NCBI GenBank assembly: GCA_019234945.1 | Contig: JAFAKX010000045.1 | Location: forward strand, 1 to 50,275 | Reading direction: 5' to 3' | DNA from: Silvibacterium sp. | GTDB lineage: Bacteria > Acidobacteriota > Terriglobia > Terriglobales > Acidobacteriaceae | Length of the DNA stretch: 50,275 nucleotides | In this document: in pieces, positions 2-48,928 of the stretch | Layout of the letters: each line of letters starts with the position of its first letter | Position numbering within the stretch: the stretch's first letter is position 1 | Translations under genes and position numbers: made by a program | The notes under the pieces: model-generated | Seen by the model: only the letters and a program-made list of their open reading frames with translations | The model's database searches: none | Told to the model about the DNA's origin: nothing

Positions 2-658
2 GTGGAGTGCAGGGACGCGGCCATACCGTTCAAAATTCAGAGTCGCGCAGACTTGATGAATGCTGAAACGGTAGCGGCTCTGAAGCGAGCCGGATGCGAA
101 GAGGTGTGGATGGGGGCAGAATCAGGCTCTCAAGCGATTCTTGATGCAATGGACAAGGCCCTCACCGTCGCGACCATCCATGGCGCGCGTGCGCGCCTTG
201 GCAAAGCGGGGATTCGGGCCGCATTTTTTCTGCAGTTCGGGTATCCAGGCGAAACGCTTAGCGAGATCGAGGAGACTATAGCTCTCGTTCGGAGTTGCCG
301 CCCTGACGATATCGGGGTTTCCGTGTCCTACCCGCTTCCGGGAACACTGTTTCACGAGCGGGTTCAGCAGCAGCTTGGCGCGAAGCGGAACTGGATCGAC
401 AGCCAGGATCTAAGCGTCATGTTTTGCGCTACGTACAGGGACGACTTCTACCGTTCTCTTCGCAACGCGTTGCATTGCGAGGTGGAGTCGTATCACCGTT
501 CTTCGACACGCGAAGACCGGCGTCGGCTTGCAGCACTATGGGAAGACGTCTACCGGCTCGAGCAGATCTGCCGGAATGCGCAACCCACACAGTTGCCTGT
601 CATTCAGCCGGCGGCGGTTCACGTGCTCGCAATGTGCGGGGCAGAATCGTTTCGTTGA
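2..658 (+). CDS. B12-type radical SAM protein, C-terminal part (5' end outside window)
   Basis: Contains 'FKIQSRADLMNAETVAALKRAGCEEVWMGAESGSQAILDAMDKALT...FFLQFGYPGET', typical of the C-terminal half of cobalamin-binding radical SAM enzymes and similar to the downstream ORF; the CxxxCxxC part would lie upstream of the window. Confidence 0.85.
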   Translation: MECRDAAIPFKIQSRADLMNAETVAALKRAGCEEVWMGAESGSQAILDAMDKALTVATIHGARARLGKAGIRAAFFLQFGYPGETLSEIEETIALVRSCRPDDIGVSVSYPLPGTLFHERVQQQLGAKRNWIDSQDLSVMFCATYRDDFYRSLRNALHCEVESYHRSSTREDRRRLAALWEDVYRLEQICRNAQPTQLPVIQPAAVHVLAMCGAESFR

Positions 659-685
659 AGGAAATGCCCAAATCAGAGGCCTGAT

Positions 686-2089
686 ATGGAACTGCTGCTT
701 ACCCACGGCTACTTTCTCCACGAAGACCCCAAGGAGCTTCAGATCATGAAGCCGTATCCGCCGTTGGGGATTCTCTACATCTGCTCGCATCTTCGCAGTA
801 AGGGCTATGCCGTGGAAGTCTTTGACAGCACTTTCCAGACGCGTGCCGGGCTCCGCGAAAGACTGATGGCTGAGACTCCTTCGGTTCTGGGGATCTACGC
901 CAACCTGATGACCCGGTCGAATGTTGTCTCGATCCTTCGCGAAGCAAAGCAGACCGGATGGAAGACCGTGGTTGGCGGTCCAGAGCCCGGCGCGTATGTT
1001 GACGAATATTTGGATGCGGGCGCTGATGTAGTGGTGCTTGGTGAAGGAGAACTCACTGTCGAAGAACTTCTCGCCTCATGGCGCGCGGGTAGGACGAGCC
1101 TCGATCGGATCGCAGGTATTGCATATCGGGACGATAGCGGCGCTACCTGCCGAACAGTTCCGCGCCTCCAGATCGCCGATCTTGACGGGCAGCCATGGCC
1201 CGCACGCGAGGACATCGACATGGATCGATACGTCGATACCTGGCGGCACCATCATGGAAAGGGTTCCGTATCGCTCATTACCGCGCGCGGATGTCCATAT
1301 CGCTGCGAATGGTGCAGCCATCAGGTGTTTGGACAGACGCATCGGCGGCGTAAGCCCGAGCGTGTTGCAGAAGAGCTTGAGTGGCTGCTCCAGCGCTACA
1401 AGCCCGACATGCTTTGGATCGCCGACGACGTTTTTACGATCAACCACGACTGGCTGCTGCGCTGGGCTGCGGAAATGAAACAGCGCGAGATACACATTCC
1501 TTTCGAGTGCATATCGCGAGCCGACCGCCTGAACGAAAGTGTGATTCGCACACTCGCGGAGCTTGGCTGCCAGCGTCTCTGGGTTGGCTCCGAAAGCGGA
1601 TCGCAGCGCATACTCGACGCAATGCAGCGCGGCGTGAAAGTTGAGGCCGTGCGTCGCGCCGTCGCTCTTTGCCGACAGTACGGAATCGAGACCGGCATGT
1701 TCCTGATGTGGGGGTACGAAGGCGAAGAACTGGAAGACATTGAAGCCACCGTCGACCACGTGCGCTCTTCGAGCCCTGACGTTTTTCTCACGACGGTTTC
1801 TTATCCGATCAAGGGGACACCTTACTACAACAAGGTCGCATCCCGGGTGGTTCAGATTCAACCCTGGGGGCAGAGTTCTGATCGTAAGCTCGATATCTCC
1901 GGGCGACGACCACGCGAGTTCTATCGTGTTGCCGATGATCTACTACGGTTTGAGGTCGAACTCGCCCGCTTGCGCGCTGCCTCGGACGGCTCAGCTGCCA
2001 ACAGTCGAATCCTGGAACTAAGTGCGTTGATCAAAGAACGGCGCAAAACCCTCTACACATATTCAGCCCTTGAGGAGAGGTCCGCGTGA
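686..2089 (+). CDS. B12-binding-domain radical SAM protein
   Basis: 467 aa; N-terminal Rossmann-like region '...LDAGADVVVLGEGELTVEELL', then radical SAM motif 'ARGCPYRCEWCSHQ' (CxxxCxxC) and 'GSESGSQRILDAMQRGV'. Confidence 0.92.
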   Translation: MELLLTHGYFLHEDPKELQIMKPYPPLGILYICSHLRSKGYAVEVFDSTFQTRAGLRERLMAETPSVLGIYANLMTRSNVVSILREAKQTGWKTVVGGPEPGAYVDEYLDAGADVVVLGEGELTVEELLASWRAGRTSLDRIAGIAYRDDSGATCRTVPRLQIADLDGQPWPAREDIDMDRYVDTWRHHHGKGSVSLITARGCPYRCEWCSHQVFGQTHRRRKPERVAEELEWLLQRYKPDMLWIADDVFTINHDWLLRWAAEMKQREIHIPFECISRADRLNESVIRTLAELGCQRLWVGSESGSQRILDAMQRGVKVEAVRRAVALCRQYGIETGMFLMWGYEGEELEDIEATVDHVRSSSPDVFLTTVSYPIKGTPYYNKVASRVVQIQPWGQSSDRKLDISGRRPREFYRVADDLLRFEVELARLRAASDGSAANSRILELSALIKERRKTLYTYSALEERSA

Positions 2090-2916
2090 CAGCAGAAACC
2101 GCAAGCGAGATCCTGCCTTCGCTGCCTCAGACTGCAGCTTTCGATGGGCTCGCGCAGGACTATGACCGGATCTTCACGTATTCGCTGCTGGGAAGAGCGC
2201 ATCGTTCTCTCGTGCATGAAGTTCTGAGCAGACACCTCAGCAAAGGGCAGCGCGTTCTTGATCTGAATTGCGGGACAGGCGAAGACGCAATTTATCTCGC
2301 ATCCCTGGGCATGTCGGTTCTAGCATGCGATATTTCCGTACGCATGGTCGAAGTCGCACATCAAAAAGCTGAGCGCAGTGGTTATGGTTCAGATGTCGAG
2401 TTGATGGTATGTGCGAATGAGCATCTCGACGACCTTGCAGATCGCGGGCCCTTTGACGCGATTCTCTCGAACTTCGGCGGACTCAACTGCACTGCCGATC
2501 TGGCACAAGTGGCAGGTGAGCTTTCCAGGCTGGTGCGTCCTGGGGGCAAGGTCTTCCTGTGCATGATTGGCAGATTTTGCGCCTGGGAGATTCTCTGGTA
2601 CGCGACGCGGGGCAAGTGGAGAAAGGGGTTCCGGCGCCTTAGTCCAGGCGGAACACGCGCGAGCATCGGGGGCACGAGTATAGATGTTCATTATCGCTCG
2701 GTAAGTGACATACGGGCCTTTGCGCCGTCGTTACAGCTTGAATCCTGGCGCGGGATTGGGGTTGTTCTTATGCCCTCCTGGCTGGCATCTGGCTTTCAAA
2801 AACGCGAATGGCTCATCGACCTGCTCAAACGGATCGATCGATGGGTCGGCGCGTTGCCGTTGTTTCGGGGACTCGCGGATCACATCCTTTTTCAGTTCGT
2901 GAGGGAAGAGAAATGA
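2086..2916 (+). CDS. class I SAM-dependent methyltransferase
   Basis: 276 aa; motif I 'VLDLNCGTGEDAIYLASLGMSVLACDIS'; 'LVRPGGKVFLCMIG'. GTG start overlaps the upstream stop by 4 nt (GTGA). Confidence 0.9.
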   Translation: MTAETASEILPSLPQTAAFDGLAQDYDRIFTYSLLGRAHRSLVHEVLSRHLSKGQRVLDLNCGTGEDAIYLASLGMSVLACDISVRMVEVAHQKAERSGYGSDVELMVCANEHLDDLADRGPFDAILSNFGGLNCTADLAQVAGELSRLVRPGGKVFLCMIGRFCAWEILWYATRGKWRKGFRRLSPGGTRASIGGTSIDVHYRSVSDIRAFAPSLQLESWRGIGVVLMPSWLASGFQKREWLIDLLKRIDRWVGALPLFRGLADHILFQFVREEK

Positions 2917-3917
2917 CGACCGCCGTTGCAGACTTCGCCGCCGGTGCTGCTCTGCCTTCCGCCGGCGATTTATGGCTTCGCTGCCCGGAGTGTTCCGCGA
3001 GTATTGGCGCGATCTCCGATCGTGAAGACGGCCTTGTTCCTGCGCGCATCGAGTGTGACAACTGCGACCATGCAATTGTGAGGAGCAACGGTGTCTGGCA
3101 GATGCTCTCGCGTCGTCAGCATCTTCGCCTGGGTACCTTTCTGCGCGACTACGAAGAGATTCGGCGCTCTGAGGGCCGCGGCTCACAACATCCTGCCTTC
3201 TATCTTGCGCTGCCTTTTGCCGATCTCACAGGAAATTTCACGGATCAGTGGCGCATTCGGGGCCGCAGTTATCGCTTTCTCGAGCGCCATCTTCTTTACC
3301 TTCTCGAAGAGCGCCATGGCAACAGATTCCGCGTCCTGGACATTGGCGCGGGCAACTGCTGGTTAAGTTATCGTCTGGCCCTGCGTGGACACCGCCCTGT
3401 CGCTGTCGATATATGCCGCAATGCCTACGACGGATTGCAAGCCGCCGCTCATTACGCAGCCGTGCTTCCGGAATTCTTTGCCCGTATTGAGGCCGAGATG
3501 AATTGCCTGCCCTTCGACAATGCGCAATTCGATGTAGCGATTTACAACGCCTCGTTTCATTATTCGACGGATTACATGCGCACGCTGCAAGAGGCGCTTC
3601 GTTGTCTGCGTCCCGGAGGCACGATTCTTATCATCGATTCGCCGACATATCAGCGGGCTCAAAGCGGCGAGAGGATGCGGTCGGAGCGCCATCAGGCATT
3701 TGCCGCCAGGTTCGGCAGGCGCAGCGATTCGCTTCCGACTGGCGACTATCTCACGCCCGCGATCATGAATGATCTCGCCGAACTCGGCATCCATTGGACC
3801 CGGCACTTAGCCTGGTACGGCGTCCGCTGGTGGCTGCGTCCGGCCACCGCAAAGCTCAAGAGGCGGAGAGAGCCGTCGCAGTTCTACATTTACGAGGGGC
3901 GGATGGTGATTTCGTGA
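2913..3917 (+). CDS. class I SAM-dependent methyltransferase with N-terminal zinc-ribbon-like segment
   Basis: Start trimmed from the ORF-track 2808 to ATG 2913, which overlaps the upstream TGA (ATGA). 'LRCPECSASIG...IECDNCDHAI' gives two CxxC pairs; 'VLDIGAGNCWLSYRLALRGHRPVAVDI' is the methyltransferase motif I. Confidence 0.87.
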   Translation: MTTAVADFAAGAALPSAGDLWLRCPECSASIGAISDREDGLVPARIECDNCDHAIVRSNGVWQMLSRRQHLRLGTFLRDYEEIRRSEGRGSQHPAFYLALPFADLTGNFTDQWRIRGRSYRFLERHLLYLLEERHGNRFRVLDIGAGNCWLSYRLALRGHRPVAVDICRNAYDGLQAAAHYAAVLPEFFARIEAEMNCLPFDNAQFDVAIYNASFHYSTDYMRTLQEALRCLRPGGTILIIDSPTYQRAQSGERMRSERHQAFAARFGRRSDSLPTGDYLTPAIMNDLAELGIHWTRHLAWYGVRWWLRPATAKLKRRREPSQFYIYEGRMVIS

Positions 3918-5377
3918 TTCTGCTCTATTACCCAAAGTTGACCAAACCGAAGAACCGGCGCTTTCCGCTCTCGATCCTCGCTCTTGCAGCCGTGCTGGAG
4001 GGCAGGGAACGCTACGAGATTATCGACGGGAATCTCGATCCCGATCCCGATTCGACCCTGGCGCGACTCATCGAGACACACTCTGTCGAACTGCTTGGAG
4101 TGAGCGTGATGCCGGGCCCGCAGATGATCTCAGCCATACAGTCCTGCAAGGCGATTCGGGCACGTTATCCGCATGTCCCAATCGTGTGGGGAGGCTATTT
4201 CCCGTCGCTCTATTCAGACGCCACACTCAACGCCAGATATGTGGATTACGCCGTGCGCGGCCAGGGAGAGGTCACGCTTCTTGAACTAATTGATGCGCTC
4301 CGCGGCAAGCGCAACGTGCGCGGCATTGCAGGCTTATCGTACAAAGACGCATTCGGTATGCGCGTTCACAATCCCGAGCGGCCAATGCAGGGCCCGAATG
4401 CCTTTCCGTGGATTCCTTTTCACCGAGTGCCGGTCGCGAGCTACCTGCGGCCCTCCTACTTCGGCAAGCGCACTGGCGCGTATCAGGCCAGTATCGGCTG
4501 CCCGTTCCAGTGCACATTCTGCGCTGTGCACGAAGCTTATGGCAGCCAACAGAAGATGGAATCGCCACCGCGGACCGAAGCGATACTTCGTCATCTGGTC
4601 GAGAAATATTCGATGGATGGCGTGCAGTTCTATGATATGAATTTTTTCCTGCGTGAAGATCACACGCGCGAATTGATGGAGCGGATCGCTCCCCTCAACT
4701 TGCAGTGGTGGTGCGAAGCGAGAATCGATACGATCTGCCGGTACTCCGACGAGACGCTTGAGTGGATTCGCAAGGGCGGCTGCACCATGATCTTTTTTGG
4801 TGCTGAGTCGGGTTCCGACCGGATCCTGCGGGAGATGAAGAAGGGGATCACCACTGAGCAGACCCTCGAAGTAGGGAAGCGCTTGCGCCAGTTCAATATC
4901 ATTCCGGAATTTTCTTTCGTCGTCGGTAATCCACGCGATCCCGAAACAGACACGCGCAATACCATTGACTTCATCCGAAAAATCAAACGGCTCAACCCGG
5001 CATCGGAAATCATTGTGCAACATTACACCCCCGTTCCCAACCGCGGACAGATGTATGGCGGGATCGACGGCAAAGTAAGTTTCCCCACAACGCTCGAAGA
5101 ATGGGCTACGCCGCAGTGGTACAACTTCAGCATTCGTGTCAATCCTTCGATGCCCTGGCTCAAGCCCCGGACGAGGCGTCTTATCGACAACTTCGAAATG
5201 GTGGTGGGCAGCCGCTGGCCGACCGTGCAGGACATTCAGGCCAGCCAATGGAGTCGCAGGCTCCTAAAAGCCCTCAGTTCGTGGCGATACCTCACGGGTG
5301 TTTACACAGCGCCCGCTGAACTTCGTCTCGCGCAGGACTGGATTCGCCTGCGCCGCCCGAAAGTCGAGAGCATATGA
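3914..5377 (+). CDS. B12-binding-domain radical SAM protein
   Basis: Start trimmed to GTG 3914 (GTGA overlap with the upstream stop). 'VDYAVRGQGEVTLLELIDALRGK', 'SIGCPFQCTFCAVHEAYG' (CxxxCxxC), 'GAESGSDRILREMKKGI'. Confidence 0.92.
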   Translation: MILLYYPKLTKPKNRRFPLSILALAAVLEGRERYEIIDGNLDPDPDSTLARLIETHSVELLGVSVMPGPQMISAIQSCKAIRARYPHVPIVWGGYFPSLYSDATLNARYVDYAVRGQGEVTLLELIDALRGKRNVRGIAGLSYKDAFGMRVHNPERPMQGPNAFPWIPFHRVPVASYLRPSYFGKRTGAYQASIGCPFQCTFCAVHEAYGSQQKMESPPRTEAILRHLVEKYSMDGVQFYDMNFFLREDHTRELMERIAPLNLQWWCEARIDTICRYSDETLEWIRKGGCTMIFFGAESGSDRILREMKKGITTEQTLEVGKRLRQFNIIPEFSFVVGNPRDPETDTRNTIDFIRKIKRLNPASEIIVQHYTPVPNRGQMYGGIDGKVSFPTTLEEWATPQWYNFSIRVNPSMPWLKPRTRRLIDNFEMVVGSRWPTVQDIQASQWSRRLLKALSSWRYLTGVYTAPAELRLAQDWIRLRRPKVESI

Positions 5378-6078
5378 ACACTTTGGATACGCGATCATCT
5401 GCCATGCTCGACGCGTCTGAGGCCTACTCCCGGTGGGCACCGACCTATGATCAGACTCCCAATCCCCTCACTGCGCTGGAAGAGCGCTGCCTCGCGCCAG
5501 TGCTGCGTGAGTTCGCTGGTCGCGATGTCGTGGACCTGGGATGCGGCACTGGTCGCTGGCTTCGGCGTCTTCAGGTTATTGGTCCGCGATCGCTTGTCGG
5601 AGTAGATTCGTCTCCCGCGATGCTCGCAATGGCAAAGAAGAAGTGCATGCATTCGACGTCCCTGATCGAAGCCGATTGCGTGTTTACGCCCTTGGCAGCC
5701 AGTTCCGCTGATCTGGTGCTTGCCTCGTTTCTTCTCTCCTACGTGCAGGACATTGGCCGATTCGCTGCCGAGGCCGCACGCATCCTGCGCCCGGGCGGCA
5801 CGCTCATCGTCTCTGACCTGCATCCAGACACGCCATCTTACGGGTGGCGGCGCACGTTCAGAGCCGCTGACGGATTGTTTGAAATCGCAACATTTCCGTA
5901 CACGCTGGCCGCTCTCAACTCAGCCATGAAGGTTGCGGGACTGAAGCTCCAGGGACTTGCCGACGCAAGATTCGGCGAAGAAGAAGCGGGGATGTTTCGC
6001 GCCAGCGGGATGGCAGAGCATTTCTATCGGGTTGAATCTCTTCCCGTGATTTGTTGGGCACGGTTCTCGCGGAGCTGA
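5374..6078 (+). CDS. class I SAM-dependent methyltransferase
   Basis: 234 aa; 'VVDLGCGTGRWLRRL...VGVDSSPAMLAMAKKK', 'ARILRPGGTLIVSDLHPD'. ATGA overlap with the upstream CDS. Confidence 0.92.
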   Translation: MNTLDTRSSAMLDASEAYSRWAPTYDQTPNPLTALEERCLAPVLREFAGRDVVDLGCGTGRWLRRLQVIGPRSLVGVDSSPAMLAMAKKKCMHSTSLIEADCVFTPLAASSADLVLASFLLSYVQDIGRFAAEAARILRPGGTLIVSDLHPDTPSYGWRRTFRAADGLFEIATFPYTLAALNSAMKVAGLKLQGLADARFGEEEAGMFRASGMAEHFYRVESLPVICWARFSRS

Positions 6079-6084
6079 ACTAAC

Positions 6085-7443
6085 TTGCCGACCTCGACGC
6101 TGTCCAGACGCGATTGCGGATCCGCCTCCACGGCGGCTATCACCTTCCAAGGCGCTCGCGTTGCGCGGTCGGCTTACAACGCTCGGTATCGGACGATCAC
6201 GGTGCGAGGATCGCGAATCGAAGCCGTCTGCATGACGGGTGCGGCGAGTCCGGGCAGAGAAGCGGCTGATAGCGTCTCCATTGATTTGTCCGGCTGTCTC
6301 GTGCTTCCCGGTCTTATAAACGCTCACGACCATCTCGATTTCTCGATATTTCCAAGGCTTGGCCACGGACCGTGGCCGAACTGGCGTGAATGGGGCGCTG
6401 CAATCCACCGTTCAGAACGGGCAGAGATCGACGAATGCCTTCGCGTTCCGCGCGATATTCGTCTCTGGTGGGGTGGACTCCGCAACCTACTTTGCGGAGT
6501 CACGACTGTGTCTCACCACAATCCCCATGCACCGGAGCTTTTCAACGCTGAGTTTCCCGTGCACGTGCCCGGCGAATGCGGCTGGGCGCATTCGTTGGCC
6601 GACATCCATCGCGTCAAGGAGCACTTCCGCCAGACGCCTCCCCAATGGCCTTTTATTCTTCATTTAGCCGAAGGAACAGACCACGAATCGCGACAGGAGT
6701 TTGACGCGCTTGGAGGTCTTCTGCAGCTGGATGACCGGGTCGTCCTTGTTCACGGCGTCGGCTTAACATCTTCACAATGGGATCGCGCCGCGCGCATCGG
6801 AATTGGTGTCGTTTGGTGTCCATCGTCGAACCTGTACACGCTTGGCCAGACCCTAAATCCGGGACAGGTCAAAGGATTTCCCAAAATCGGGCTGGGGTCC
6901 GATTCCCCGCTAAGCGGTACCGGCGATCTACTCGATGAGGTCAGGCTGGCGCATGACGAGATGGGGATTCCTGCACCTCTCGTGTATGATCTTGTGACGT
7001 CGAGGCCCGCGCATCTCCTTCGTCTAAGCTTTGGCGGGGGATTTCTCCAGCCAGGATCAAAAGCCGACCTTATCGTTACTCGCGAAAGGCAAACCGCTCC
7101 TGCTGAGACGCTCGTACAAATGACGTGGCGAGATGTCGAACTGGTGATGCAAGGCGGAAGAATTGTTCTGCTTTCCCCTGCCCTTGCGGGCCGCATTCCA
7201 TGCGGGCTGAAACGGGACATGGAACCGATATTCATCGATGGTGTGGAGCGGTTTTTGCGCGCCCCCATTTCCGACCTGTGGACCCAGACCGCAATCGCAC
7301 TCGGGAGGATTCCGGTACTGTCCGGCAGGATCCTGTCAATTGGTGCCTGTGCCGACCTTCCACCTTCTGTTTGCAGGCTCTTTACGGCGTGCAACTCTGG
7401 CGTCACCGGCTTGCGACACGATTGTCACCCGTTTGTCATTTGA
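6085..7443 (+). CDS. amidohydrolase family protein
   Basis: 452 aa, TTG start; 'GCLVLPGLINAHDHLDFSIF' metal-binding HxH motif, 'VVWCPSSNLYTLGQT', 'GLGSDSPLSGTGDLLDEVRLA'. Confidence 0.85.
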   Translation: MPTSTLSRRDCGSASTAAITFQGARVARSAYNARYRTITVRGSRIEAVCMTGAASPGREAADSVSIDLSGCLVLPGLINAHDHLDFSIFPRLGHGPWPNWREWGAAIHRSERAEIDECLRVPRDIRLWWGGLRNLLCGVTTVSHHNPHAPELFNAEFPVHVPGECGWAHSLADIHRVKEHFRQTPPQWPFILHLAEGTDHESRQEFDALGGLLQLDDRVVLVHGVGLTSSQWDRAARIGIGVVWCPSSNLYTLGQTLNPGQVKGFPKIGLGSDSPLSGTGDLLDEVRLAHDEMGIPAPLVYDLVTSRPAHLLRLSFGGGFLQPGSKADLIVTRERQTAPAETLVQMTWRDVELVMQGGRIVLLSPALAGRIPCGLKRDMEPIFIDGVERFLRAPISDLWTQTAIALGRIPVLSGRILSIGACADLPPSVCRLFTACNSGVTGLRHDCHPFVI

Positions 7444-7534
7444 GGCAAAATTCTGAATTACAAGGTTTGCGTGGGGAGAAAATGGACGAGGGCACCGCAG
7501 GTTGTCTCTGAATCGTCCCACGGATGGAATTGAA

Positions 7535-8215
7535 ATGGTACTCGTGATTGAAGACGATCCCGGAATCCAGAAAGTACTATACCGTCTCTTCACTACTGAC
7601 GGTCTTCAGGTGAAAGCTGCGCATGATGGCAAGGAAGCACAGGAAGCGATGAAAGGCCCTGCGCCGGAAATCATCATCCTGGATCTCATGCTGCCGGGCG
7701 CCTCCGGAAAAGACCTGTGCAAGAGTCTTAAGCGCATATTTCCCAATGTACCCATCATTGTCCTCAGCGCCATTTCCGAGGTCAGCGATAAAGTGCTGCT
7801 GCTCGAGCTCGGCGCGGATGACTACGTGACGAAGCCTTTCAGCCCGCGCGAACTGTTGGCACGCGTCCAGGCGGCCATCCGCCGCGTTTCCAGCCCACGT
7901 CCCGTTAAGGTGTACTCCTTCGGTAATGTCACCGTGGACTTTCTTAAGATGGAGGCGAAGCGGAGCGGCGAAAATGTGACTCTCACTGCGCATGAATTCA
8001 GATTGCTCAAGTTCATGCTCGAGAATGCCGAGCGGGTGCTTTCTCGAGAGGAACTGCTGAACCATGTCTGGGGTTACAGCTGCTATCCCTCCACCCGCAC
8101 GGTCGATAATCAGATCCTCAAACTGCGCCAGAAGCTGGAGACCGATCCATCGAATCCGAAATACATTCGAACTATGCACGGAATGGGGTACAAGTTCGTA
8201 GGCCAGATCCAATGA
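7535..8215 (+). CDS. OmpR/PhoB-family response regulator
   Basis: 'MVLVIEDDPGIQKVLYRLF...IIILDLMLPGASGKDLC...LLELGADDYVTKPFSPRELLARV' receiver plus winged helix 'TAHEFRLLKFMLENAERVLSREELLNHVWG...VDNQILKLRQKLE'. ATG 7535 preferred over the track start 7502. Confidence 0.95.
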   Translation: MVLVIEDDPGIQKVLYRLFTTDGLQVKAAHDGKEAQEAMKGPAPEIIILDLMLPGASGKDLCKSLKRIFPNVPIIVLSAISEVSDKVLLLELGADDYVTKPFSPRELLARVQAAIRRVSSPRPVKVYSFGNVTVDFLKMEAKRSGENVTLTAHEFRLLKFMLENAERVLSREELLNHVWGYSCYPSTRTVDNQILKLRQKLETDPSNPKYIRTMHGMGYKFVGQIQ

Positions 8216-8250
8216 ACAGCACCACAGCGGCTGCGTGAGAGAGAACCATC

Positions 8251-10050
8251 ATGCGCATGCGAACGATTCTTCTTCTCTCGTTGCTTTCGCTTTCCTGCGG
8301 GCTCACTGTGATGAGCCTGATTGTCATCCATAGCAGCCTGCAGAAGCAGATTCGGCGAAATCTGGCCGCCGATCTCCTGCACTCGACCGTCACCTTTCAG
8401 AACCTGCAGCGGCAAAGGCAGCTGTTACTCGATCGCGAAGTCGCACTGCTCGCCGATCTCCCAAGCCTGAAGGCGCTGATGACGACGCACGACTTGAACA
8501 CTATCCGGGATGGAGGCGCGGAATTCTGGAAGGTGAGCGGCAGCGACCTGTTTGCACTGGTGAACACATCTGGAGCGGTTGCTGCCGTATACGACAGAGC
8601 CGGACTTACCGATCCGCAGGACATCGAGGTTCAACTGAAGCGTTTGCTCGACTCACATTCTGGGCAGTCTTATCTGCTCAGCAACCAGCGCCTCTATCAG
8701 GTTTCTTTCCGTCCGCTATATTTCGGTTCCGAAATAACTGGGAACCCCCTCGGGTTCGTCATAGCAGGGTATTCGATTGATGACCGGGTCAGCCGGCAGG
8801 TCAGCGAAGCTGCCGCGGCAGACGTGATCTTTCTGGCCGCAGACAAGATCGTATCGAGCACGCTGGATGAGCAGCATAACCTCGATCTGCAGCGCCAGAA
8901 TGGAGTCATCGCGCCACAGGCGATCGAACAGGATCTCTGGCTTGGCAAGGAGCACTACCTTGCGGCCTCGGTTCCCATACAGACGCTCTCCGAGGTTCCT
9001 GTCCGACTCCTGGTTCTCAAGTCCTTCGACCAGGCGAGTCTCTTCGCATTGCGGCTGAATCGCCTGTTGCTTGTGCTTGGACTGCTCGTGGTCGTAATTG
9101 CTACCCTGCTTGCTCTCTATATTTCACGCACGATCACACGACCTCTGGATGACTTGCTCGCGGGTGCGCGGGCGCTGGGGTCTGGGGATTTTGACTTTCC
9201 GCTAAGCGGCGGAGGTACCAAGGAGCTAAGGGAACTCAGCGGTGCATTCGATACCATGCGAAACCAACTGCGCCGATCGCAGCAGGAGCTGGTAGAGTCG
9301 GCCCGGCTGGCCGTGATCGGCCGTATGGCAAGTTCCATTTCCCACGACCTTCGCCACTATCTCTCGTCCATCTATGCCAATGCTGAATTCCTCAGCAATC
9401 CCGCTACTCCAACACCCGAGCGTGACGAACTGATGATGGATGTCCAGCTAGCCGTGCAGGGGATGACAGATGTGCTTGAGTCCCTCCTCGTGTTCAGCCG
9501 TACCGGGAAGTCGCTGCATCCAACGTATGAATCTTTCAGTGGTCTGGTGGATCGTGCGGCCGGGCTCATCCGGACACATCCGGAAGCGCATGGAGTAACG
9601 ATCCATGTCGAGCATCTTCCTCACGCTGAGGCCTGGATGGATGCAAGGATGATCGAGCGCGCCGTTTTCAATCTGCTGATTAACGCCGCGCAGGCGGCTC
9701 ACAGCGGACCACCGCCTGCCATTGTTACCGTGAGCCTAACGGAAAATGCACAACTACTGGAGTTGCGAATCACGGACAGCGGACCTGGAGTGCCTACAGC
9801 CATTCGCGACACACTCTTCGAGCCGTTCGTCAGCGATGGCAAGAGGCGAGGCATCGGCCTGGGCCTGACTATCGCAAACCGCATCGCGCAGGAGCACGGC
9901 GGCAGGGTGTATCTTGAGGATTCACGCCCGGGCCGCACGACTTTTGTGCTGGCTCTTCCTCGGACTGTCCTGGGGGCACTTCTTATCACCGAGCCCGAGG
10001 AATCGGCGGCCGCTCCTCGAGCGTCGCTTAGCGGCATGACAAACGCCTGA
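8251..10050 (+). CDS. membrane sensor histidine kinase (HAMP, HisKA, HATPase_c)
   Basis: 599 aa; N-terminal TM, HAMP-like 'SRTITRPLDDLLAGARALGSGDFDFPL', H-box 'MASSISHDLRHYLSSIYANAEFL', N/G boxes 'NLLINAAQAA', 'ITDSGPGVP', 'GIGLGLTIANRIAQEHGG'. Confidence 0.95.
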   Translation: MRMRTILLLSLLSLSCGLTVMSLIVIHSSLQKQIRRNLAADLLHSTVTFQNLQRQRQLLLDREVALLADLPSLKALMTTHDLNTIRDGGAEFWKVSGSDLFALVNTSGAVAAVYDRAGLTDPQDIEVQLKRLLDSHSGQSYLLSNQRLYQVSFRPLYFGSEITGNPLGFVIAGYSIDDRVSRQVSEAAAADVIFLAADKIVSSTLDEQHNLDLQRQNGVIAPQAIEQDLWLGKEHYLAASVPIQTLSEVPVRLLVLKSFDQASLFALRLNRLLLVLGLLVVVIATLLALYISRTITRPLDDLLAGARALGSGDFDFPLSGGGTKELRELSGAFDTMRNQLRRSQQELVESARLAVIGRMASSISHDLRHYLSSIYANAEFLSNPATPTPERDELMMDVQLAVQGMTDVLESLLVFSRTGKSLHPTYESFSGLVDRAAGLIRTHPEAHGVTIHVEHLPHAEAWMDARMIERAVFNLLINAAQAAHSGPPPAIVTVSLTENAQLLELRITDSGPGVPTAIRDTLFEPFVSDGKRRGIGLGLTIANRIAQEHGGRVYLEDSRPGRTTFVLALPRTVLGALLITEPEESAAAPRASLSGMTNA

Positions 10051-10124: not shown

Positions 10125-11267
10125 GTGCGGGTTGCCATCGTTCATCATTGGTTTGTCTCTCAGGGAGGCGGGGAGCGTGTTGCCGAAGTGCTCGCTCAGA
10201 TGTTTCCCTCCGCCGACATCTTCGCTCTTGTTGCGGACCGGGAACAGGTTCCGCCGAGCCTTTGTGATCGCACCATTCGGACCTCGTTCATTAATCGCCT
10301 GCCCTTTGCCGGCCACATCTACCGCCATCTGCTGCCGCTCTACCCAACCGCCGTCGAGCGCCTCGATCTTCGAGGATACGATCTCGTCCTTACTTCCGAC
10401 AGCGGACCAATGAAAGGTGTCGTCATTTCTCCCTCAGCCGTTCACATCTGCTACTGTCACTCACCCATGCGATACCTGTGGGACCAGCACAATCACTACC
10501 GCCGTAGCATGGGCCCCCTAACGCGAGCAGCTTTCGGCATTTCGGCACAGTATGTGCGCTCGTGGGATCAGCGGGCTGCACAGCGCGTCACGCAGTTTGT
10601 CGCAAATTCCCGATATGTGGCATCGCGCATTCTCGAATATTACGGACGCGACAGCCTTGTGATTCATCCTCCGGTTGACACCACGGCCGGCTACGTGAGC
10701 AGCACACCGGGGAAAGCTTATCTGACCGTGGGACGTCTCGTGCCCTACAAACGCATCGAGGTTCTCATCCAGGCTTGCAATCTCCTCGGCCGCGAGCTTC
10801 GCATCATTGGTACCGGTCCTGAGGAGTCACGCCTGCGTTCCCAGGCCGGCGGCACGATCAAGTTCCTCGGCAACGTTGATGAAGCCTCGCTATGGCGCGA
10901 ATATGCGAACTGCCGCGCGTTTCTTTTTGCCGCGGAAGAGGATTTCGGCATGGCGATGGTGGAAGCACAGTCCTGCGGGCGCCCCGTGATCGCATTCGGC
11001 AAAGGTGGAGCGCTCGAAACGGTCAGCGCGAACCACATTGGAGATTCGCCCCAGGAGACTTGTGTGTTTTTCGACTGCCAAGACCCCGACGCGGTTGTGA
11101 AAGCAATACTGTGCTTTGAGGCCGTCGAGCATCGCTTCAAGCCGCAGGCCATCCGCCGTCATGCACAGCGTTTCAGTGTCGACGTCTTTCGCAGTAGTTT
11201 TCGCACGTTAGTCGATAGCATTGTCGGAGTCCAATCGCCCCCATACGAACTCGAGGCCTGTTCGTGA
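10125..11267 (+). CDS. GT4-family glycosyltransferase
   Basis: 380 aa, GTG start; 'IVHHWFVSQGGGERVAEVLA', 'CYCHSPMRYLWDQH', 'YLTVGRLVPYKRIEVLIQA', 'EDFGMAMVEAQSCGRPVIAFGKGGALETV'. Confidence 0.92.
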   Translation: MRVAIVHHWFVSQGGGERVAEVLAQMFPSADIFALVADREQVPPSLCDRTIRTSFINRLPFAGHIYRHLLPLYPTAVERLDLRGYDLVLTSDSGPMKGVVISPSAVHICYCHSPMRYLWDQHNHYRRSMGPLTRAAFGISAQYVRSWDQRAAQRVTQFVANSRYVASRILEYYGRDSLVIHPPVDTTAGYVSSTPGKAYLTVGRLVPYKRIEVLIQACNLLGRELRIIGTGPEESRLRSQAGGTIKFLGNVDEASLWREYANCRAFLFAAEEDFGMAMVEAQSCGRPVIAFGKGGALETVSANHIGDSPQETCVFFDCQDPDAVVKAILCFEAVEHRFKPQAIRRHAQRFSVDVFRSSFRTLVDSIVGVQSPPYELEACS

Positions 11268-12412
11268 GCGCTCCTCGTGAGGTCGTGATCGATGCCAGAT
11301 GGCTTCGCACGGGGATAGGCCGTTACATCCTGACCTTGCTCAAGAATCTGAAGCCGAAGCTTCCCGACACATTGCTGACCTGCATCACCATGTCCGCTCA
11401 TGCCGCGACCCTCGCGCCGCTCTGTGACCGCATTATCGAGATGAATTGCGGAATCTATTCACTGGCGGAACAGTTACGCCTGCCGCTGGCTGCGGAGGGC
11501 GCGTCCGTCTTCTGCGCCCCGCATTACAACATTCCGATTCTTCGCCGCGGACCGATGGTGGTGACCATCCACGACCTTACTCATTTACTTTTCCCTGAAT
11601 ATCGAGGCACGATGCGTGCTCGGATTTATGCCAACGCCATGTTCAGGATTGCATCCCTGCGCGCCAACCGCATCATCACTCCATCCCATTACACCCGTAA
11701 CTGCCTCATCGAGCGTCTCGCCGCAGATCCGGCCAAGATCTCCGTCGTTCCCTGCACTGTAAGCGGAGCCTTTCATCAGCAGCCGAAAGAGCAGGCCGCG
11801 GAGGCAGTTCGAATCCTCTGCGGTGTTGATGCGCCCTACATCCTCTTCGTGGGATCAGCAGCCCCGCATAAGAATCTCGTCACGCTTCTGAAAGCGCACC
11901 GGCTTTTGTATGCGAAGCATCGGGATGCGCCCCACCTTGTCCTGGTGCTTCCTCGTAAGGCAGATTCAACGGGGGTTGATCGGGAACTCGGTTCGCTCCT
12001 GGCCAACCAGAGCGTGCACTGCCTGCACTCAATCTCGGATGAATCGCTGGCTGCGCTCTATGCGGCAGCAGTGATGACCGTGATGCCGTCCTTTGAGGAG
12101 GGCTTTGGCCTGCCAGTCATTGAGTCAATGGGCTGTGGGACACCCGTTGCGTGTTCCCGAGCTGCATCACTTCCGGAGATAGCCGGCGATGGTGCGATTT
12201 ACTTTGATCCGCACTCGGCAGAAGAGATGGTCTGGGCTATCGATCAGCTCTTCACCTCACAAGACTTGCGTCGCCGCCTGGCCGAAAGAGGCATTCAGCG
12301 CGCCGCGTCATTTTCTGGAACACGCGCGGCCTCCGCCTATGCGGCCATTCTGGCCTCCGTTGCGACAGACACAACGCCAGCCACAGTTCCCGAGAGGCAA
12401 TATGGCTTGTGA
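11264..12412 (+). CDS. GT4-family glycosyltransferase
   Basis: 382 aa, GTG start in a GTGA overlap; 'ILFVGSAAPHKNLVTLLKAHRLL', 'PSFEEGFGLPVIESMGCGTPVACSRAASLPEIAGDGAIYFDPH'. Confidence 0.93.
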   Translation: MSAPREVVIDARWLRTGIGRYILTLLKNLKPKLPDTLLTCITMSAHAATLAPLCDRIIEMNCGIYSLAEQLRLPLAAEGASVFCAPHYNIPILRRGPMVVTIHDLTHLLFPEYRGTMRARIYANAMFRIASLRANRIITPSHYTRNCLIERLAADPAKISVVPCTVSGAFHQQPKEQAAEAVRILCGVDAPYILFVGSAAPHKNLVTLLKAHRLLYAKHRDAPHLVLVLPRKADSTGVDRELGSLLANQSVHCLHSISDESLAALYAAAVMTVMPSFEEGFGLPVIESMGCGTPVACSRAASLPEIAGDGAIYFDPHSAEEMVWAIDQLFTSQDLRRRLAERGIQRAASFSGTRAASAYAAILASVATDTTPATVPERQYGL

Positions 12413-12549
12413 GCGTCCCAGGTTTTCGGTTTGTATTCCGCCTGCATACATTCTCGGACAAAATAACACCGATGCAGCCACCCAGGTAGTCCATGGATTA
12501 CCGGGCAGGAGTCCTCAGTTCGGCATTCGGCATTCGGGGAGCAGGTGAT

Positions 12550-13734
12550 ATGTATCTCAAGCTACGCGTGGATCGAGTGATGAAGCCGTCGGGTATGGCG
12601 CTTCTGGCGGTGCTCCTTAGCTTTTGCGCGTGGCTCTGCCCGGATTTCGGAGTGTTACGAAAAGGCTTTACAGTTTCCGAGAATCCAGGCCTAATGGCCT
12701 GGTTCATTCTCTTTGCGTGGTACGTGTTGATTTTGGTCAGCTTCACCGTGGGACAGCGATTGGGAGAGCTTTTCCCGGGGCAGCGGGCCAGATATGCTCC
12801 GCCATCGCTCGACTCGGTGGCCGTCTATCGCGTATTCACCCTTCTGGCAGCGTTCGGAATTATTACAACGCTGCTGAGAATCTTTCAGACCCTTTCTTTG
12901 CCGCAGGCAGCTCTCTACTTCTACATTGGGCAAGGGAACCGCATCAAAAATACTCTGTACGACAACTACAGCGCTGGAGTTCTTTCCCTGCGTTACCTCG
13001 TTGTCTATTCTGCATCCCTTGCCATCCTTCGGATGGTCAGGTTTAGAAAGCTGAGCGTTCTGGGCCTTGCAAACATCGTGTTACTCGCTGGAACGGTGCT
13101 TGTTTCGTCACGCCTCATTCTGGTCGCAACGCTGGTGGTGTCATGTTTTCTCGTGACTTGGGGTAAGGGCTATATAAGGGTCAGCTTTCTAAAGTTAGCA
13201 GTATGCATTGCCATTGCCTTCGGGGTACTGTCCCTGCTAAATGCATCGCGTAATCGAAACTTCTACGCTGAGCGCGATCTGTCTTTCACTCAGGCCGGCA
13301 TCTCTGAGATCGTTACCTATCTGGGAGCACCGTTCCATGTCTCCGTAGGCGCCGCGCGAAGGTTGGACGAGATCACCGCTGGTGGGCCGGAGCTTTATCG
13401 TGAGTACATTGACATCGAGCCGGAGCTCACAACCAACTCCGCCTTCGTTCATTTGCATGCGGAAATGGGCTATTTTGCCTGGCCTTACGTCGGCCTGATC
13501 TGCTGCTTTATGGGATTCATCTTCTCCTGGCTAACTTCCTTCGGAAAAACCTGTTTCCTGCTCCCATGCGGAGCCATCCTGTACGGCTGCGCAGAGCTGT
13601 GGCGGTTGGATTTGTTCCACCAGGGCATCTTCATCGTCTGGTTTGTCTTCGGTATCGGCATTCCCGGCGCATTTCTATTCTTCAGCAAACTTCGTATTCC
13701 TGCCCGGGCCAGTCTTCCAGTACCCCAGAGCTGA
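12550..13734 (+). CDS. polytopic membrane protein, probable O-antigen/EPS polymerase (Wzy-like)
   Basis: Many hydrophobic segments; 'NASRNRNFYAERDLSFTQ...NSAFVHLHAEMGYFAWPYVGLI' resembles oligosaccharide repeat-unit polymerases; between glycosyltransferase and flippase genes. ATG 12550 preferred over 12493. Confidence 0.6.
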   Translation: MYLKLRVDRVMKPSGMALLAVLLSFCAWLCPDFGVLRKGFTVSENPGLMAWFILFAWYVLILVSFTVGQRLGELFPGQRARYAPPSLDSVAVYRVFTLLAAFGIITTLLRIFQTLSLPQAALYFYIGQGNRIKNTLYDNYSAGVLSLRYLVVYSASLAILRMVRFRKLSVLGLANIVLLAGTVLVSSRLILVATLVVSCFLVTWGKGYIRVSFLKLAVCIAIAFGVLSLLNASRNRNFYAERDLSFTQAGISEIVTYLGAPFHVSVGAARRLDEITAGGPELYREYIDIEPELTTNSAFVHLHAEMGYFAWPYVGLICCFMGFIFSWLTSFGKTCFLLPCGAILYGCAELWRLDLFHQGIFIVWFVFGIGIPGAFLFFSKLRIPARASLPVPQS

Positions 13735-13743
13735 GGCGCTCAG

Positions 13744-15063
13744 CTACGTAACCAAGGGCGAACTGATCGCTTCGTTCGCATCGCCCGGCATTGCCTCTCG
13801 TCTCGAGACAGTACGTAATTGCCACACAAGGACGAGAAGGAACGGTGCATACGAAAGCGGCGTCGAGTAAGCAGCGCCCATCGCACCAAATCTGGGAATC
13901 AGGAACAGGTTCAAAACGACATTCGTAGCTACCGCAATTCCCGTCGCTGCGATCACTCGACGCGGATGGTCCCAAGCGATCAATATTGTGAGCAACACTG
14001 ACGTGACAAAGTCCAACGGTATCGCTATGAGAAGCGGTGTCGCCAGCGCTGCCGAAGCTACGAAGGCCTGCCCGAACAGTAAACCAATAAGCTGGGTTCG
14101 TACCATCCACATCAGAGACGCAATTGCCATGCCAGAGGCAGCGGCCAGAAGCAGAGGGCGCCGTAACGGATGAACTCGCCGTTGCCCCCTGGGAATAGCA
14201 GCCAGCCGCGGATACACAGCCTGCATGACGAAGTAATACACCGCCAGCACCAGCAGAAGAAGACGGTAGGCTGTGCTGTATAACCCCGTCTGCATGCTGT
14301 CCGTCATCCCGCCCAGCATCATTGTGTCGATCGAATAGAATGCCTGGTACATCAGCAGGGCAGTTCCCAGCACAGCTATCGACTTCCAGTCGGGAAATTC
14401 CGACGATTGCAGATCACTCGCATCAGCGGGGTCGCGCCCCACAACCTTTCTTGCCCAGCAAATCCACAACCAAGATCCCGCGATGAGATAGGCTAGCCCG
14501 ATCGCAAGTGGAACAATCAACAGGCCTGCATGAAGCTTCACCACGCAAGTCACCGTGACCGCCAAACCGATCGCCGACACCAGTGCCCGCCACCCCGACA
14601 TAAGGGCGAACCGCTGCATTCCCCAGGCGAGCCAATCGACAGAGAGTCCATACCCAAATATCGATATGGCATACAGGCTCACAATCGACCGCGCATCCTC
14701 TTGCACAGGTCCTGCTCGCCCATACAAGTAGCCGAGTGCAACCACCGAAACTGCCAAAGCAATGCGTCTACGCTGGACAAAACGAACTACCTGCCCGATC
14801 CTTTGCGGATGCCTGGCTGCGAGCCGCGCGCCGGTTTGCCGCAATCCAAAGTCAATACCGTGCATCTGGTAGACAGAGAGCGCCTGCGCGACTGCGTACG
14901 CTCCCGCTGCGCGAACCCCGAAGGTGCGGCTGATAAAGATAACCAGGAGCAAATTGCACAGCCGCGCGATGCCTTCGCCGGTCGCGATCGCTAATATGTG
15001 ATAGCGTAGCCGCGCCGCAAAGGGCTTGCGACTCTCGCGGGTGTCCTCGTCAGCCTGGCTCAC
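13744..15063 (-). CDS. polysaccharide flippase / oligosaccharide translocase (Wzx/MATE-like)
   Basis: 439 aa polytopic; 'ATGEGIARLCNLLLVIFISRTFGVRAAGAYAVAQAL', 'YSIDTMMLGGMTDSMQTGLYSTAYRL', 'TNVVLNLFLIPRFGAMGAAYST'. Confidence 0.87.
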   Translation of the reverse strand: MSQADEDTRESRKPFAARLRYHILAIATGEGIARLCNLLLVIFISRTFGVRAAGAYAVAQALSVYQMHGIDFGLRQTGARLAARHPQRIGQVVRFVQRRRIALAVSVVALGYLYGRAGPVQEDARSIVSLYAISIFGYGLSVDWLAWGMQRFALMSGWRALVSAIGLAVTVTCVVKLHAGLLIVPLAIGLAYLIAGSWLWICWARKVVGRDPADASDLQSSEFPDWKSIAVLGTALLMYQAFYSIDTMMLGGMTDSMQTGLYSTAYRLLLLVLAVYYFVMQAVYPRLAAIPRGQRRVHPLRRPLLLAAASGMAIASLMWMVRTQLIGLLFGQAFVASAALATPLLIAIPLDFVTSVLLTILIAWDHPRRVIAATGIAVATNVVLNLFLIPRFGAMGAAYSTPLSYAPFLLVLVWQLRTVSRREAMPGDANEAISSPLVT

Positions 15064-16283
15064 GCCACATTCTTCTTCGAGTGAAGTAAATTGCGCAATG
15101 CATCAAGATGCGGGGCGTTTTCCGGTTCCTCGGCCATCCTTGTCCATCTATCCTTGAGCAGCACTCCTGTCGCGAGCAGGATCCCGGAGGTAAGCAGCGC
15201 CAGCAGAACCAGCAGGGTTCGCGGAGGCCACGAGCGCTTGTCCAGGACGATTGCCTTGTCGAGTACCTGAATGATTTGAGGCGCTTTCGCTTCCTCAATG
15301 CGGGCGAGCTCATATTGCTTCGACAGCGTCTCAAATAGCGCCTCGTGGTAACGAAGGTTTCGCAGCTGGCGCAAATATTCAAGTCCTGCCTGTGGAATGC
15401 GCCCGGCCGAAACGAAGTAGTTGTCGCCGCCCCCGCTGTCGCTCTCGGCTTTCCTCAGCTGCTCCCGCAACGCGGACACTCCGGATTCCAGCTGCTGCAG
15501 CTGGCCATTTTGTTCTGTGGCCATGGTCCGGAGTTGTTCCATCTGTACCTCTTTGGCGGAGATTTCCGCCCGAAGCTGCGCGATCGAGCGGAGCGTCATC
15601 TCCTGCTGGCCGACGAGCTGGATGACTCCTGTTTTTTGCTGAAGCTTCTGAAACGCCTCCTCGGTCTTGGCCAACGTCTCACTCTCCGCGCTGACCTGCT
15701 GTTCCAGAAAGAGTCGACGCTGTGATCCTGTGGTAAGCGCAAGGTGCTGGTTCACGTGGTAGAGTTCGTCGACATATGCATTGGCCATTGCTGCAGCGCG
15801 TCGCACATCGTGATCGTCAACCGAGATGCGAATCGATGAGCCCTTGGTCGCTTCAATATGCGTATGCCTGGCCAGGGCCTTGCGGGTATCCACAAGCGTG
15901 CGCTTTCGATACACGCTTTGAAGATGAAAGTCCTGGATGAGGTTATCGGCCACCGTCCGGCTCCTTAGAACTTCGACAAATGTATCCGCCTGGCTTTTTA
16001 ACAGGCTGTCACCGCCAAGCGCCGCCAGCGCTCCCAGCTGACCCAGCAGTGCCGACGCTGACCCAGATGAGTTCTGCGAAGTAAGGATGACGGTGGAAGC
16101 AGTGTAGGTAGCCGGTATAACCAAAACGATGAGAGCGGTCATCGCCGCTGCGATTAGCATACCGCTGACAATGAACCGCCTGTGCCGAGCGAGCACGACC
16201 AGATTTTTCAGGAGCGAAGGTTCTGGTGTGCCTGCCGCCTCGCGGCGGCCTTCAAATGCAATTTCCCGCTCTACGCTTAGCAT
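15060..16283 (-). CDS. chain-length determinant / Wzz-GumC-like protein, no apparent C-terminal BY-kinase
   Basis: 'LLKNLVVLARHRRFIVSGMLIAAAMTALIVLVIPATYTASTVILTS', coiled-coil centre, 'IIQVLDKAIVLDKRSWPPRTLLVLLALLTSGILLATGVLLKDRW'. 4-nt overlap with the flippase; start taken as ATG 16283. Confidence 0.88.
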   Translation of the reverse strand: MLSVEREIAFEGRREAAGTPEPSLLKNLVVLARHRRFIVSGMLIAAAMTALIVLVIPATYTASTVILTSQNSSGSASALLGQLGALAALGGDSLLKSQADTFVEVLRSRTVADNLIQDFHLQSVYRKRTLVDTRKALARHTHIEATKGSSIRISVDDHDVRRAAAMANAYVDELYHVNQHLALTTGSQRRLFLEQQVSAESETLAKTEEAFQKLQQKTGVIQLVGQQEMTLRSIAQLRAEISAKEVQMEQLRTMATEQNGQLQQLESGVSALREQLRKAESDSGGGDNYFVSAGRIPQAGLEYLRQLRNLRYHEALFETLSKQYELARIEEAKAPQIIQVLDKAIVLDKRSWPPRTLLVLLALLTSGILLATGVLLKDRWTRMAEEPENAPHLDALRNLLHSKKNVA

Positions 16284-16532
16284 GGCAAGCCCTCTGGTCA
16301 CGCAGCGCGATGTTTTGCGACAGCGGTCCCTGAATTCTTTATAGGCGTTCCAATTCGCGAAAGCGCAGCATCCTGCCATCTGTGACAAAGGAATGACATC
16401 GCGTGTGCAAGTGTCAGACAGCAGTTTCCTACACTCGCTCTATCACGGTGTGCGCGGCTCTGTGAGCATGCGATGCCGCCATTCTCAACAACAACGTACG
16501 GAACCAATACAGGACGACAAGTCGGTCGCGTT

Positions 16533-22756: not shown

Positions 22757-22774
22757 AAAGGAAACGCAACGGGC

Positions 22775-23416
22775 ATGTCCGAAGCCTCACTCGTCGCGAA
22801 CTGGGACGACGTCGTCAGCCGACTATGCGAAATCGGTCGCGAATTCTACAGCCGAGGCTGGGTGTATGGCACCAGCGGCAATTTCAGCGCTCGAATCTCG
22901 GTCGATCCTCTTCGGCTCGCGATCACTTCGAGCGGACTGGACAAGGGCGCACTATCTCCTGGCCACATCCTGGAAATCGACTCCGCGGCCTGTGTCCTTC
23001 GCGGCATCGGTCGCCCCTCCGCCGAAACAAGCCTGCATCTCGTTCTCGTGCAGCAGGCCGCCGCCGGGGCTGTCCTGCACACCCATTCCATCTGGAGCAC
23101 TCTGCTCTCCGACCGCTGGGCCGCTCAGGGGGGACTCGTCCTCGAAGGCTACGAGATGCTCAAGGGACTTGCCGGCATCGTGACTCACGAGCATCGCGAG
23201 TGGGTGCCGATCATTGAGAATTCGCAGGACTATGCTGCGCTCTCAGCCGCGCTGTCCTCAGTGCTCGCAGACTATCCGAACTGTCATGGCGTCCTGCTTC
23301 GCAAACACGGCCTCTACACCTGGGGCTGCGATCTCGCCGAGGCGCGCCGTCACGTCGAAATACTGGAGTTTCTCTTTGAAGCCGAGGCGCGCCGCCAGCT
23401 CGCCAATCAGCCTTGA
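22775..23416 (+). CDS. mtnB: class II aldolase/adducin family, probable methylthioribulose-1-phosphate dehydratase
   Basis: 'GREFYSRGWVYGTSGNFSARIS', 'HLVLVQQAAAGAVLHTHSIWSTLLS', 'GYEMLKGLAG', 'PNCHGVLLRKHGLYTWG'; neighbours mtnD and mtnC. Confidence 0.88.
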   Translation: MSEASLVANWDDVVSRLCEIGREFYSRGWVYGTSGNFSARISVDPLRLAITSSGLDKGALSPGHILEIDSAACVLRGIGRPSAETSLHLVLVQQAAAGAVLHTHSIWSTLLSDRWAAQGGLVLEGYEMLKGLAGIVTHEHREWVPIIENSQDYAALSAALSSVLADYPNCHGVLLRKHGLYTWGCDLAEARRHVEILEFLFEAEARRQLANQP

Positions 23417-24273: not shown

Positions 24274-24354
24274 AATGGGCGCATGATAAACGATTCTTTC
24301 CTAAGTCCAAAGAGTGTCCCCCATTCAGGTACCGCAGCTAAAATAGAGACATCT

Positions 24355-24921: not shown

Positions 24922-24939
24922 GAGACTCGCCCGTTCCCG

Positions 24940-33088: not shown

Positions 33089-33112
33089 TGCGGAGAGTTC
33101 TCCATTTCGGCC

Positions 33113-34989: not shown

Positions 34990-35046
34990 AATTGTCGGGT
35001 GGTAAACACCTTAAACGGCAGCGGCAGGGTTCGGCAAATAGTAGCC

Positions 35047-35820: not shown

Positions 35821-35833
35821 TCGGTAGGTTCCT

Positions 35834-36928: not shown

Positions 36929-37035
36929 GCGGTCCAAACTGTATTTATAACAGCGCAGCGAATGAGGCCATCGGTTGCGCAGGATTTTCAGGACGCATCT
37001 GGACCGGTTCACGCTTCAATCGTCTGGGCTGATGA

Positions 37036-47020: not shown

Positions 47021-47072
47021 CGCTGGATCCAAATCTGCTCAACGGATGTTGGGTTTGAAAAGGAGATGTTCG

Positions 47073-48920: not shown

Positions 48921-48928
48921 GATCATCG

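Follow-up and report, generated by a model that had tools for sequence, protein, structure and literature searches.

Which product would call for a set of cobalamin-type radical S-adenosylmethionine (SAM) enzymes, methyltransferases and a metal-dependent amidohydrolase, all encoded side by side? This question is raised by the first genes of a 50,275-nucleotide stretch of DNA (the window, meaning the whole stretch analysed) from Silvibacterium sp., a member of the Acidobacteriaceae (GenBank assembly GCA_019234945.1, contig JAFAKX010000045.1). Cobalamin-type radical SAM enzymes carry out chemistry at unactivated carbons that is difficult by other means, and to our knowledge few natural pathways employ more than two or three of them per product. 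On balance, it is probable that the operon at positions 2-7443 specifies the greater part of an acidobacterial pathway, dedicated and so far undescribed, that yields one multiply modified small molecule or building block of an envelope glycan. Known enzyme classes are brought together here in a new combination. The cobalamin-type radical SAM group has been described in a review as a largely untapped reservoir (PMC8992657). An operon that encodes as many as five B12-domain radical SAM proteins, is distributed phylum-wide and occurs in cultured soil bacteria offers a definite starting point in the search for a new compound and new enzyme reactions.

Gene content and catalytic motifs of the operon

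Calling of open reading frames (ORFs) gave a coupled operon in a single orientation, in the order rSAM1 (C-terminal part), rSAM2, MT1, MT2, rSAM3, MT3 and AH, all on the plus strand, with 4-base overlaps between neighbouring genes at 2086-2089, 2913-2916, 3914-3917 and 5374-5377. What remains in the rSAM1 frame (2..658) is the C-terminal ~40% of a radical SAM protein with a B12 domain, PF04055 being matched at positions 76-165 only. The initial annotation, made from the letters alone, had described this ORF as cut at the window edge. Since base 1 of the window is also base 1 of the contig, in an assembly that is 72% complete, the frame was truncated by the assembly, its N-terminal part was lost at the contig end, and the 5' end of the operon cannot be read in the Silvibacterium sp. 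genome.

Both rSAM2 (686..2089, 467 amino acids (aa)) and rSAM3 (3914..5377, 487 aa) contain a B12-binding domain (PF02310) and a Radical_SAM domain (PF04055) above the Pfam gathering score, which, together with the C-terminal Radical_SAM part at 2-658, agrees with the three ORFs of B12-enzyme-like architecture reported in the initial annotation. The CxxxCxxC motif noticed there in two of the ORFs is found at residue 203 of rSAM2 and residue 196 of rSAM3, and all three Cys are invariant in the alignments of 26 rSAM2 homologues and of 35 rSAM3 homologues from several Acidobacteriota families. The motif falls outside the truncated rSAM1. Full-length relatives of rSAM1 (about 465-515 aa) have both a Radical_SAM and a B12-binding domain. 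Of three such relatives, two exceed the Pfam cut-off for the latter domain, and the closest one falls short of it (29.8 against 32.1 bits).

The three methyltransferases and the amidohydrolase that had been read from the sequence were recovered by Pfam. MT1 (2086..2916, 276 aa; Methyltransf_25/11), which shares a 4-base overlap with rSAM2, MT2 (2913..3917; Methyltransf_11) and MT3 (5374..6078, 234 aa) are class I SAM methyltransferases, and MT2 has a Cys-rich N-terminal stretch (CPEC...CDNC). The start of MT2 is most likely the ATG at 2913, which is preceded by the ribosome-site-like stretch GAGGGAAGAG, and not the longest-frame start at 2808. AH (6085..7443; Amidohydro_1), which starts with TTG at 6085, is a metal-dependent amidohydrolase of the ATZ/TRZ (aminohydrolase) kind. 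The signature of this kind (HxH, HxxE, H and D as metal/catalytic residues) is fully kept, and residues H81, H83, H193, E196, H223 and D273 are invariant in 19 homologues.

Structural models and relation to characterized families

The nearest structures to the AlphaFold2 model of rSAM2 (predicted local distance difference test (pLDDT) 92) are TsrM, MgmA, AprD4, CysS, OxsB and TokK, and this predicted fold puts rSAM2 among the cobalamin-dependent radical SAM enzymes. TsrM, MgmA, CysS, TokK and OxsB share the two-domain fold of the model, whereas their identity to it in structural alignments is 16-22% and their substrates vary. AprD4, the radical SAM diol dehydratase of apramycin, is also a close structural match and is the top PDB sequence match for both rSAM2 and rSAM3, but its identity in the structural alignment is about 18% and the NCBIfam AprD4 model scored 75 against 500 bits. 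Because the fold neighbours of rSAM2 include methylases, a dehydratase and a ring-contracting enzyme, the fold alone is silent on the reaction. As judged from their domains, the radical SAM proteins of the operon may use cobalamin, and some or all of them may transfer methyl groups.

No NCBIfam cut-off was reached by rSAM2, for which BchE scored best (153 against 481 bits), and the radical SAM proteins were far below the cut-offs of BchE, HpnJ, HpnR, PhpK, ApyD, AprD4, MgmA, BzaD and other NCBIfam models. On these scores the known lipid radical SAM systems were rejected. The methyltransferases of the window and AH did not reach an NCBIfam cut-off either, the best model for AH being 8-oxoguanine deaminase (51 against 532 bits). 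These scores place all of the proteins outside well-characterised isofunctional families, membership of which would have counted against the reading in the initial annotation. The AH model (pLDDT 88) is nearest to AtzA/TrzN and to nucleoside/base deaminases; model and profile together are closest to atrazine chlorohydrolases, methylthioadenosine/S-adenosylhomocysteine (MTA/SAH)-type deaminases and isocytosine deaminase, none of which is favoured.

Gene order and distribution in relatives

The window holds part of the operon. In relatives it is completed by two further B12-domain radical SAM genes upstream (rSAM0a and rSAM0b, with B12-binding and Radical_SAM domains over the Pfam cut-offs) and often by a SPASM radical SAM gene downstream. 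Across 17 loci the gene order is rSAM0a, rSAM0b, rSAM1, rSAM2, MT1, MT2, rSAM3, MT3, AH and SPASM-rSAM with occasional single absences, and all ten genes are present in loci such as L040 and L051. An MT1 homologue was found in 17/17 loci with rSAM2, and in nine loci (L040, L041, L042, L044, L045, L046, L047, L048 and L051) MT3 and AH are fused into one protein of 629-654 aa. Since the gene order is kept in many genomes, the operon is beyond chance. The nearest relatives are found in one metagenome-assembled genome, Paracidobacterium acidisoli and Silvibacterium bohemicum; in these and in the window the SPASM gene is missing and the operon runs on into glycan genes. For rSAM0b and the GT87 glycosyltransferase of the closest relative no orthologue was found in the assembly of the window organism, the incompleteness of which makes this absence little informative. 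Relatives of rSAM3 at 39-47% identity occur in similar, partly rearranged gene sets of other Acidobacteriota families, where an NPPY-type methyltransferase sometimes lies near MT2 or rSAM3 (fusion confirmed in L065). No rSAM3 relative was found on plasmids at E 1e-60.

Among 300 sampled Acidobacteriaceae genomes, rSAM1 was present in 58, a figure that counts the truncated copy of the window along with 57 others; AH was present in 49, rSAM2 in 44 and rSAM3 in 43. The operon set with rSAM2 and rSAM3 is carried by about 14% of the genomes. All AH-bearing genomes had rSAM1 (49/49) and all rSAM3-bearing genomes had rSAM2 (43/43). The Fisher values for co-occurrence were 1e-22 or lower, with shared ancestry and physical linkage ignored, and these statistics mean that the genes are inherited together, nothing more. 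The conserved neighbourhood of radical SAM, methyltransferase and amidohydrolase genes that the initial annotation had proposed to look for across Acidobacteriota was recovered, with strong co-occurrence and with other families included. No description of this gene set in Acidobacteria came to light in a literature search, in line with the earlier remark that no characterised cluster of such composition was recognised.

A reduced cassette, usually with GTP cyclohydrolase II

The relatives also reveal a reduced cassette (type II, as opposed to the operon described above, type I) and co-travelling glycosyltransferase, kinase-like and nucleotidyltransferase genes. In sixteen genomes rSAM1 and AH are present but rSAM2 and rSAM3 are missing. 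The locus there is a compact cassette of NTP_transf_5, MT1, GTP cyclohydrolase II (GCHII), rSAM1, MT2, AH, a GT1 glycosyltransferase and an HPr-kinase-like (HprK-like) protein, the families being assigned by Pfam on one representative. NTP_transf_5, rSAM1, AH, a UDPGT-like glycosyltransferase and the HprK-like protein were each found in 16/16 loci, homologues of MT1 and MT2 in 15/16 each and GCHII in 14/16; an MT3 homologue is present in 5, GT87 in 7 and a PhyH-like dioxygenase, known by its N-terminal sequence, in 12. In G072, G158, G201 and G235 an rSAM1 locus of the type II lineage stands apart from the rSAM0/2/3 locus, and contains AH in G158 and G235. In the rSAM1 and AH trees, the type II copies and those of the split loci form one group nested inside the type I diversity, and type II therefore looks like a derived, reduced form. 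The comparison of the two types is a natural experiment, in which a shared core (rSAM1, MT1, MT2 and AH) stands against parts gained or lost, so that early steps could be tested with few enzymes.

Some of the partner genes are common to both types. In ten type I genomes the same 20 kb also encodes a GT87 protein of ~700 aa; such a protein adjoins the rSAM1 locus in G158 and G174, but not in G119, G128 or G040. A C-terminal propeller repeat was found by Pfam in one copy. Several type I loci likewise contain NTP_transf_5 and HprK-like genes. A PqqD-like identity for a 152-aa ORF by the HprK-like gene was dropped, as it had no Pfam or NCBIfam match.

Exactly two GCHII copies were found in 16/16 control genomes without rSAM1, and three or four in 4/4 type II genomes tested, where the extra copy is inside the cassette. 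An extra GCHII is also located in the locus of G150, G209, G072 and G201, and elsewhere in the genome in G175 and G040. Because a standalone GCHII adjoins rSAM1 in 14/16 type II loci, the type II scaffold might be a GTP-derived 2-amino-4-oxopyrimidine, a tentative and rather doubtful guess. As a separate observation, a RibB-like or GCHII-containing RibBA-like riboflavin gene lies near the type II or split cassette in L087, L088 and L098 (G064, G088 and G292) and in L052 and L094 (G072 and G194). Beside the rSAM1/GCHII locus of G072 (L052:3910-8249) there are three flavin-reductase-like proteins and a putative O-methyltransferase, relatives of which adjoin the operon in L044 and L048.

Proposed pathway and alternative explanations

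In the pathway that we propose, the B12-domain radical SAM enzymes would act successively on a common scaffold and introduce C-methyl groups and/or ring or deoxy changes, and the three methyltransferases would methylate nitrogen or oxygen atoms. The zinc-type AH would hydrolyse a C-N bond, most likely by deamination of a nitrogen-heterocyclic intermediate, and would be physically coupled to MT3, its frequent fusion partner. The kinase-like protein, the nucleotidyltransferase and the glycosyltransferases (GT87; GT1 or GT4) would activate, glycosylate and export the product, which, to judge from the genes, is probably a glycosylated, multiply methylated metabolite or envelope building block. The initial annotation had put forward a dedicated pathway whose product is a multiply modified metabolite, lipid or glycan building block; this view is supported and remains the best general reading. 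Several points weigh against our proposal. Its substrate and product are predictions from gene content, AH has no substrate-specific signature, with several aminohydrolase families scoring alike, and the HprK-like proteins score under the Pfam cut-off. GT87 and NTP_transf_5 are missing beside some operon copies, and the glycan genes next to the operon may be there independently of it. Furthermore, most type I genomes, including the incomplete one of the window, have neither a GCHII in the locus nor an extra copy elsewhere, so a GTP-derived scaffold may not extend to type I. A bolder reading, which we consider quite unlikely, is that the operon defines a new metabolite family: a GTP-derived N-heterocycle would be rebuilt step by step by one SPASM and as many as five B12-domain radical SAM enzymes, and would then undergo methylation, deamination by AH (the role of RibD elsewhere), phosphorylation or nucleotidylation and glycosylation by a dedicated GT87, to give a new surface-linked or cofactor-like compound.

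AH could also play a housekeeping role outside the synthesis of the product: by deaminating the 5'-deoxyadenosine and S-adenosylhomocysteine that radical SAM enzymes and methyltransferases leave behind, it would free these enzymes from inhibition by their products. Radical SAM enzymes are inhibited by 5'-deoxyadenosine, for which a deaminase in M. jannaschii has been cited (PMC6079011); such disposal would also suit the MTA/SAH-type deaminases among the nearest solved relatives of the AH profile and the fusion of AH to a SAM-using methyltransferase. We nevertheless consider it unlikely. AH is kept in the 16 genomes where rSAM1 is the sole radical SAM protein of the operon, ten genomes with rSAM2/rSAM3 have no AH match (an argument that is not final, some assemblies being incomplete or fragmented), and the 5'-deoxyadenosine/MTA/SAH deaminase model PRK07228 gave 33 against 522 bits for the window AH and 50 for a fused AH. 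Across the 300 genomes, the presence of AH does not track the number of radical SAM proteins, and a step tied to rSAM1 fits this distribution better than service to all of them; the retention of AH with rSAM1 regardless of that number favours a pathway step over by-product disposal.

A sugar of an exopolysaccharide or glycolipid is a distinct possibility for the product, if not one that we would expect: the radical SAM enzymes would C-methylate or deoxygenate it, the methyltransferases O-methylate it, and GT4, GT87, flippase and Wzz proteins assemble and export the polymer. The glycosyltransferases, flippase and Wzz protein downstream in the window, the recurrent GT87, the PIG-L-like deacetylase, GNAT-like and GDP-sugar genes seen by eye in two other families, and the top PDB match to the aminoglycoside-acting AprD4 all point in this direction, whereas many operon copies have no adjoining glycan genes, the AH kind targets C-N bonds in heterocycles and related amidines, and type II has instead GCHII and a natural-product-type UDPGT. 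Modification of a ribosomal peptide is highly improbable. The SPASM radical SAM protein in many loci and the HprK-like and NTP_transf_5 partners resemble those of some lasso peptide and SynChlorMet loci, and several radical SAM models for ribosomally synthesized and post-translationally modified peptides (RiPPs) match weakly, but the Scm and RiPP models are far under cut-off and no conserved small ORF lies by the operon among the 3535 small ORFs clustered in the loci tested, the conserved ones being shadow frames of longer genes. An unusual membrane-lipid modification of the ladderane, hopanoid or tetraether kind has as little probability: the HpnJ, HpnR and ladderane radical SAM models match weakly, but no equivalog cut-off was reached, rSAM2 and rSAM3 are restricted to a small part of the family, and it is not obvious what AH and GCHII would do in such a pathway.

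Comparison with known gene clusters

Bottromycin-type clusters contain several radical SAM C-methyltransferases, an O-methyltransferase and an amidohydrolase. The operon resembles them in the clustering of several candidate radical SAM C-methylases with a methyltransferase and an amidohydrolase, but it has no conserved precursor peptide and its AH is nearest to ATZ/TRZ-type aminohydrolases; no YcaO gene was noticed beside the operon, although no dedicated YcaO search was made. With the SynChlorMet (Scm) cassette it shares HprK-like and SPASM radical SAM partners, whereas the B12-domain radical SAM proteins, methyltransferases and AH are extra here, and membership was rejected on scores (ScmE and ScmF 62 against 400, ScmC 19 against 125). 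It has been reported that pseudoiodinine and toxoflavin are made from GTP via GTP cyclohydrolase II, a deaminase and methyltransferases (PMC9911603). The type II cassette likewise has GCHII, methyltransferases, a candidate deaminase and a dioxygenase. However, the psd cluster (psdA-G) has a RibD-type deaminase, a sulphatase-modifying-factor protein and a WD-40 protein, with no radical SAM protein listed (PMC9911603). As extra GCHII is mostly lacking in type I, membership of a toxoflavin-like group is not claimed and the likeness is an analogy.

Flanking genes and other features of the window

Downstream of AH lie a response regulator (7502-8215) and a histidine kinase (8251-10050), both on the plus strand and assigned by Pfam; this pair (7502..10050) is common to the closest relatives only (L035, L036/L037 and L038/L039). 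It is followed by two GT4 glycosyltransferases (10125-11267 and 11264-12412), a predicted membrane protein of 413 aa without a Pfam match (12493-13734), and, on the minus strand, a flippase (13744-15063) and a Wzz chain-length protein (15060-16388), the glycosyltransferases, flippase and Wzz protein being assigned by Pfam. These glycan genes (10125..16388) are kept next to the operon in the three closest relatives, and may be associated with it.

Methionine-salvage genes were found 15 kb from the SAM-consuming operon. mtnB (22694-23416) and mtnC (24940-25668) scored over the NCBIfam cut-offs, and the frame between them (24013-24921) is acireductone dioxygenase-like by eye, with no NCBIfam match at 1e-20; recycling of methylthioadenosine would be expected from the genes at 22694-25668. 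A cluster for L-fucose use on the minus strand (31772-37012) contains a fucose permease over the cut-off, a fuconolactonase-like amidohydrolase below it and dehydrogenase-like frames. Two large outer-membrane proteins (27306-31079, 1257 aa; 42411-46052, 1213 aa) have carboxypeptidase-regulatory-like N-termini and are TonB-dependent-transporter-like by eye. At 46992-50275, two tandem Hsp70/HscA-like proteins, far under the HscA cut-off, come after a 193-aa frame, and their weak match to a PADLOC candidate model probably just reflects the shared ATPase fold.

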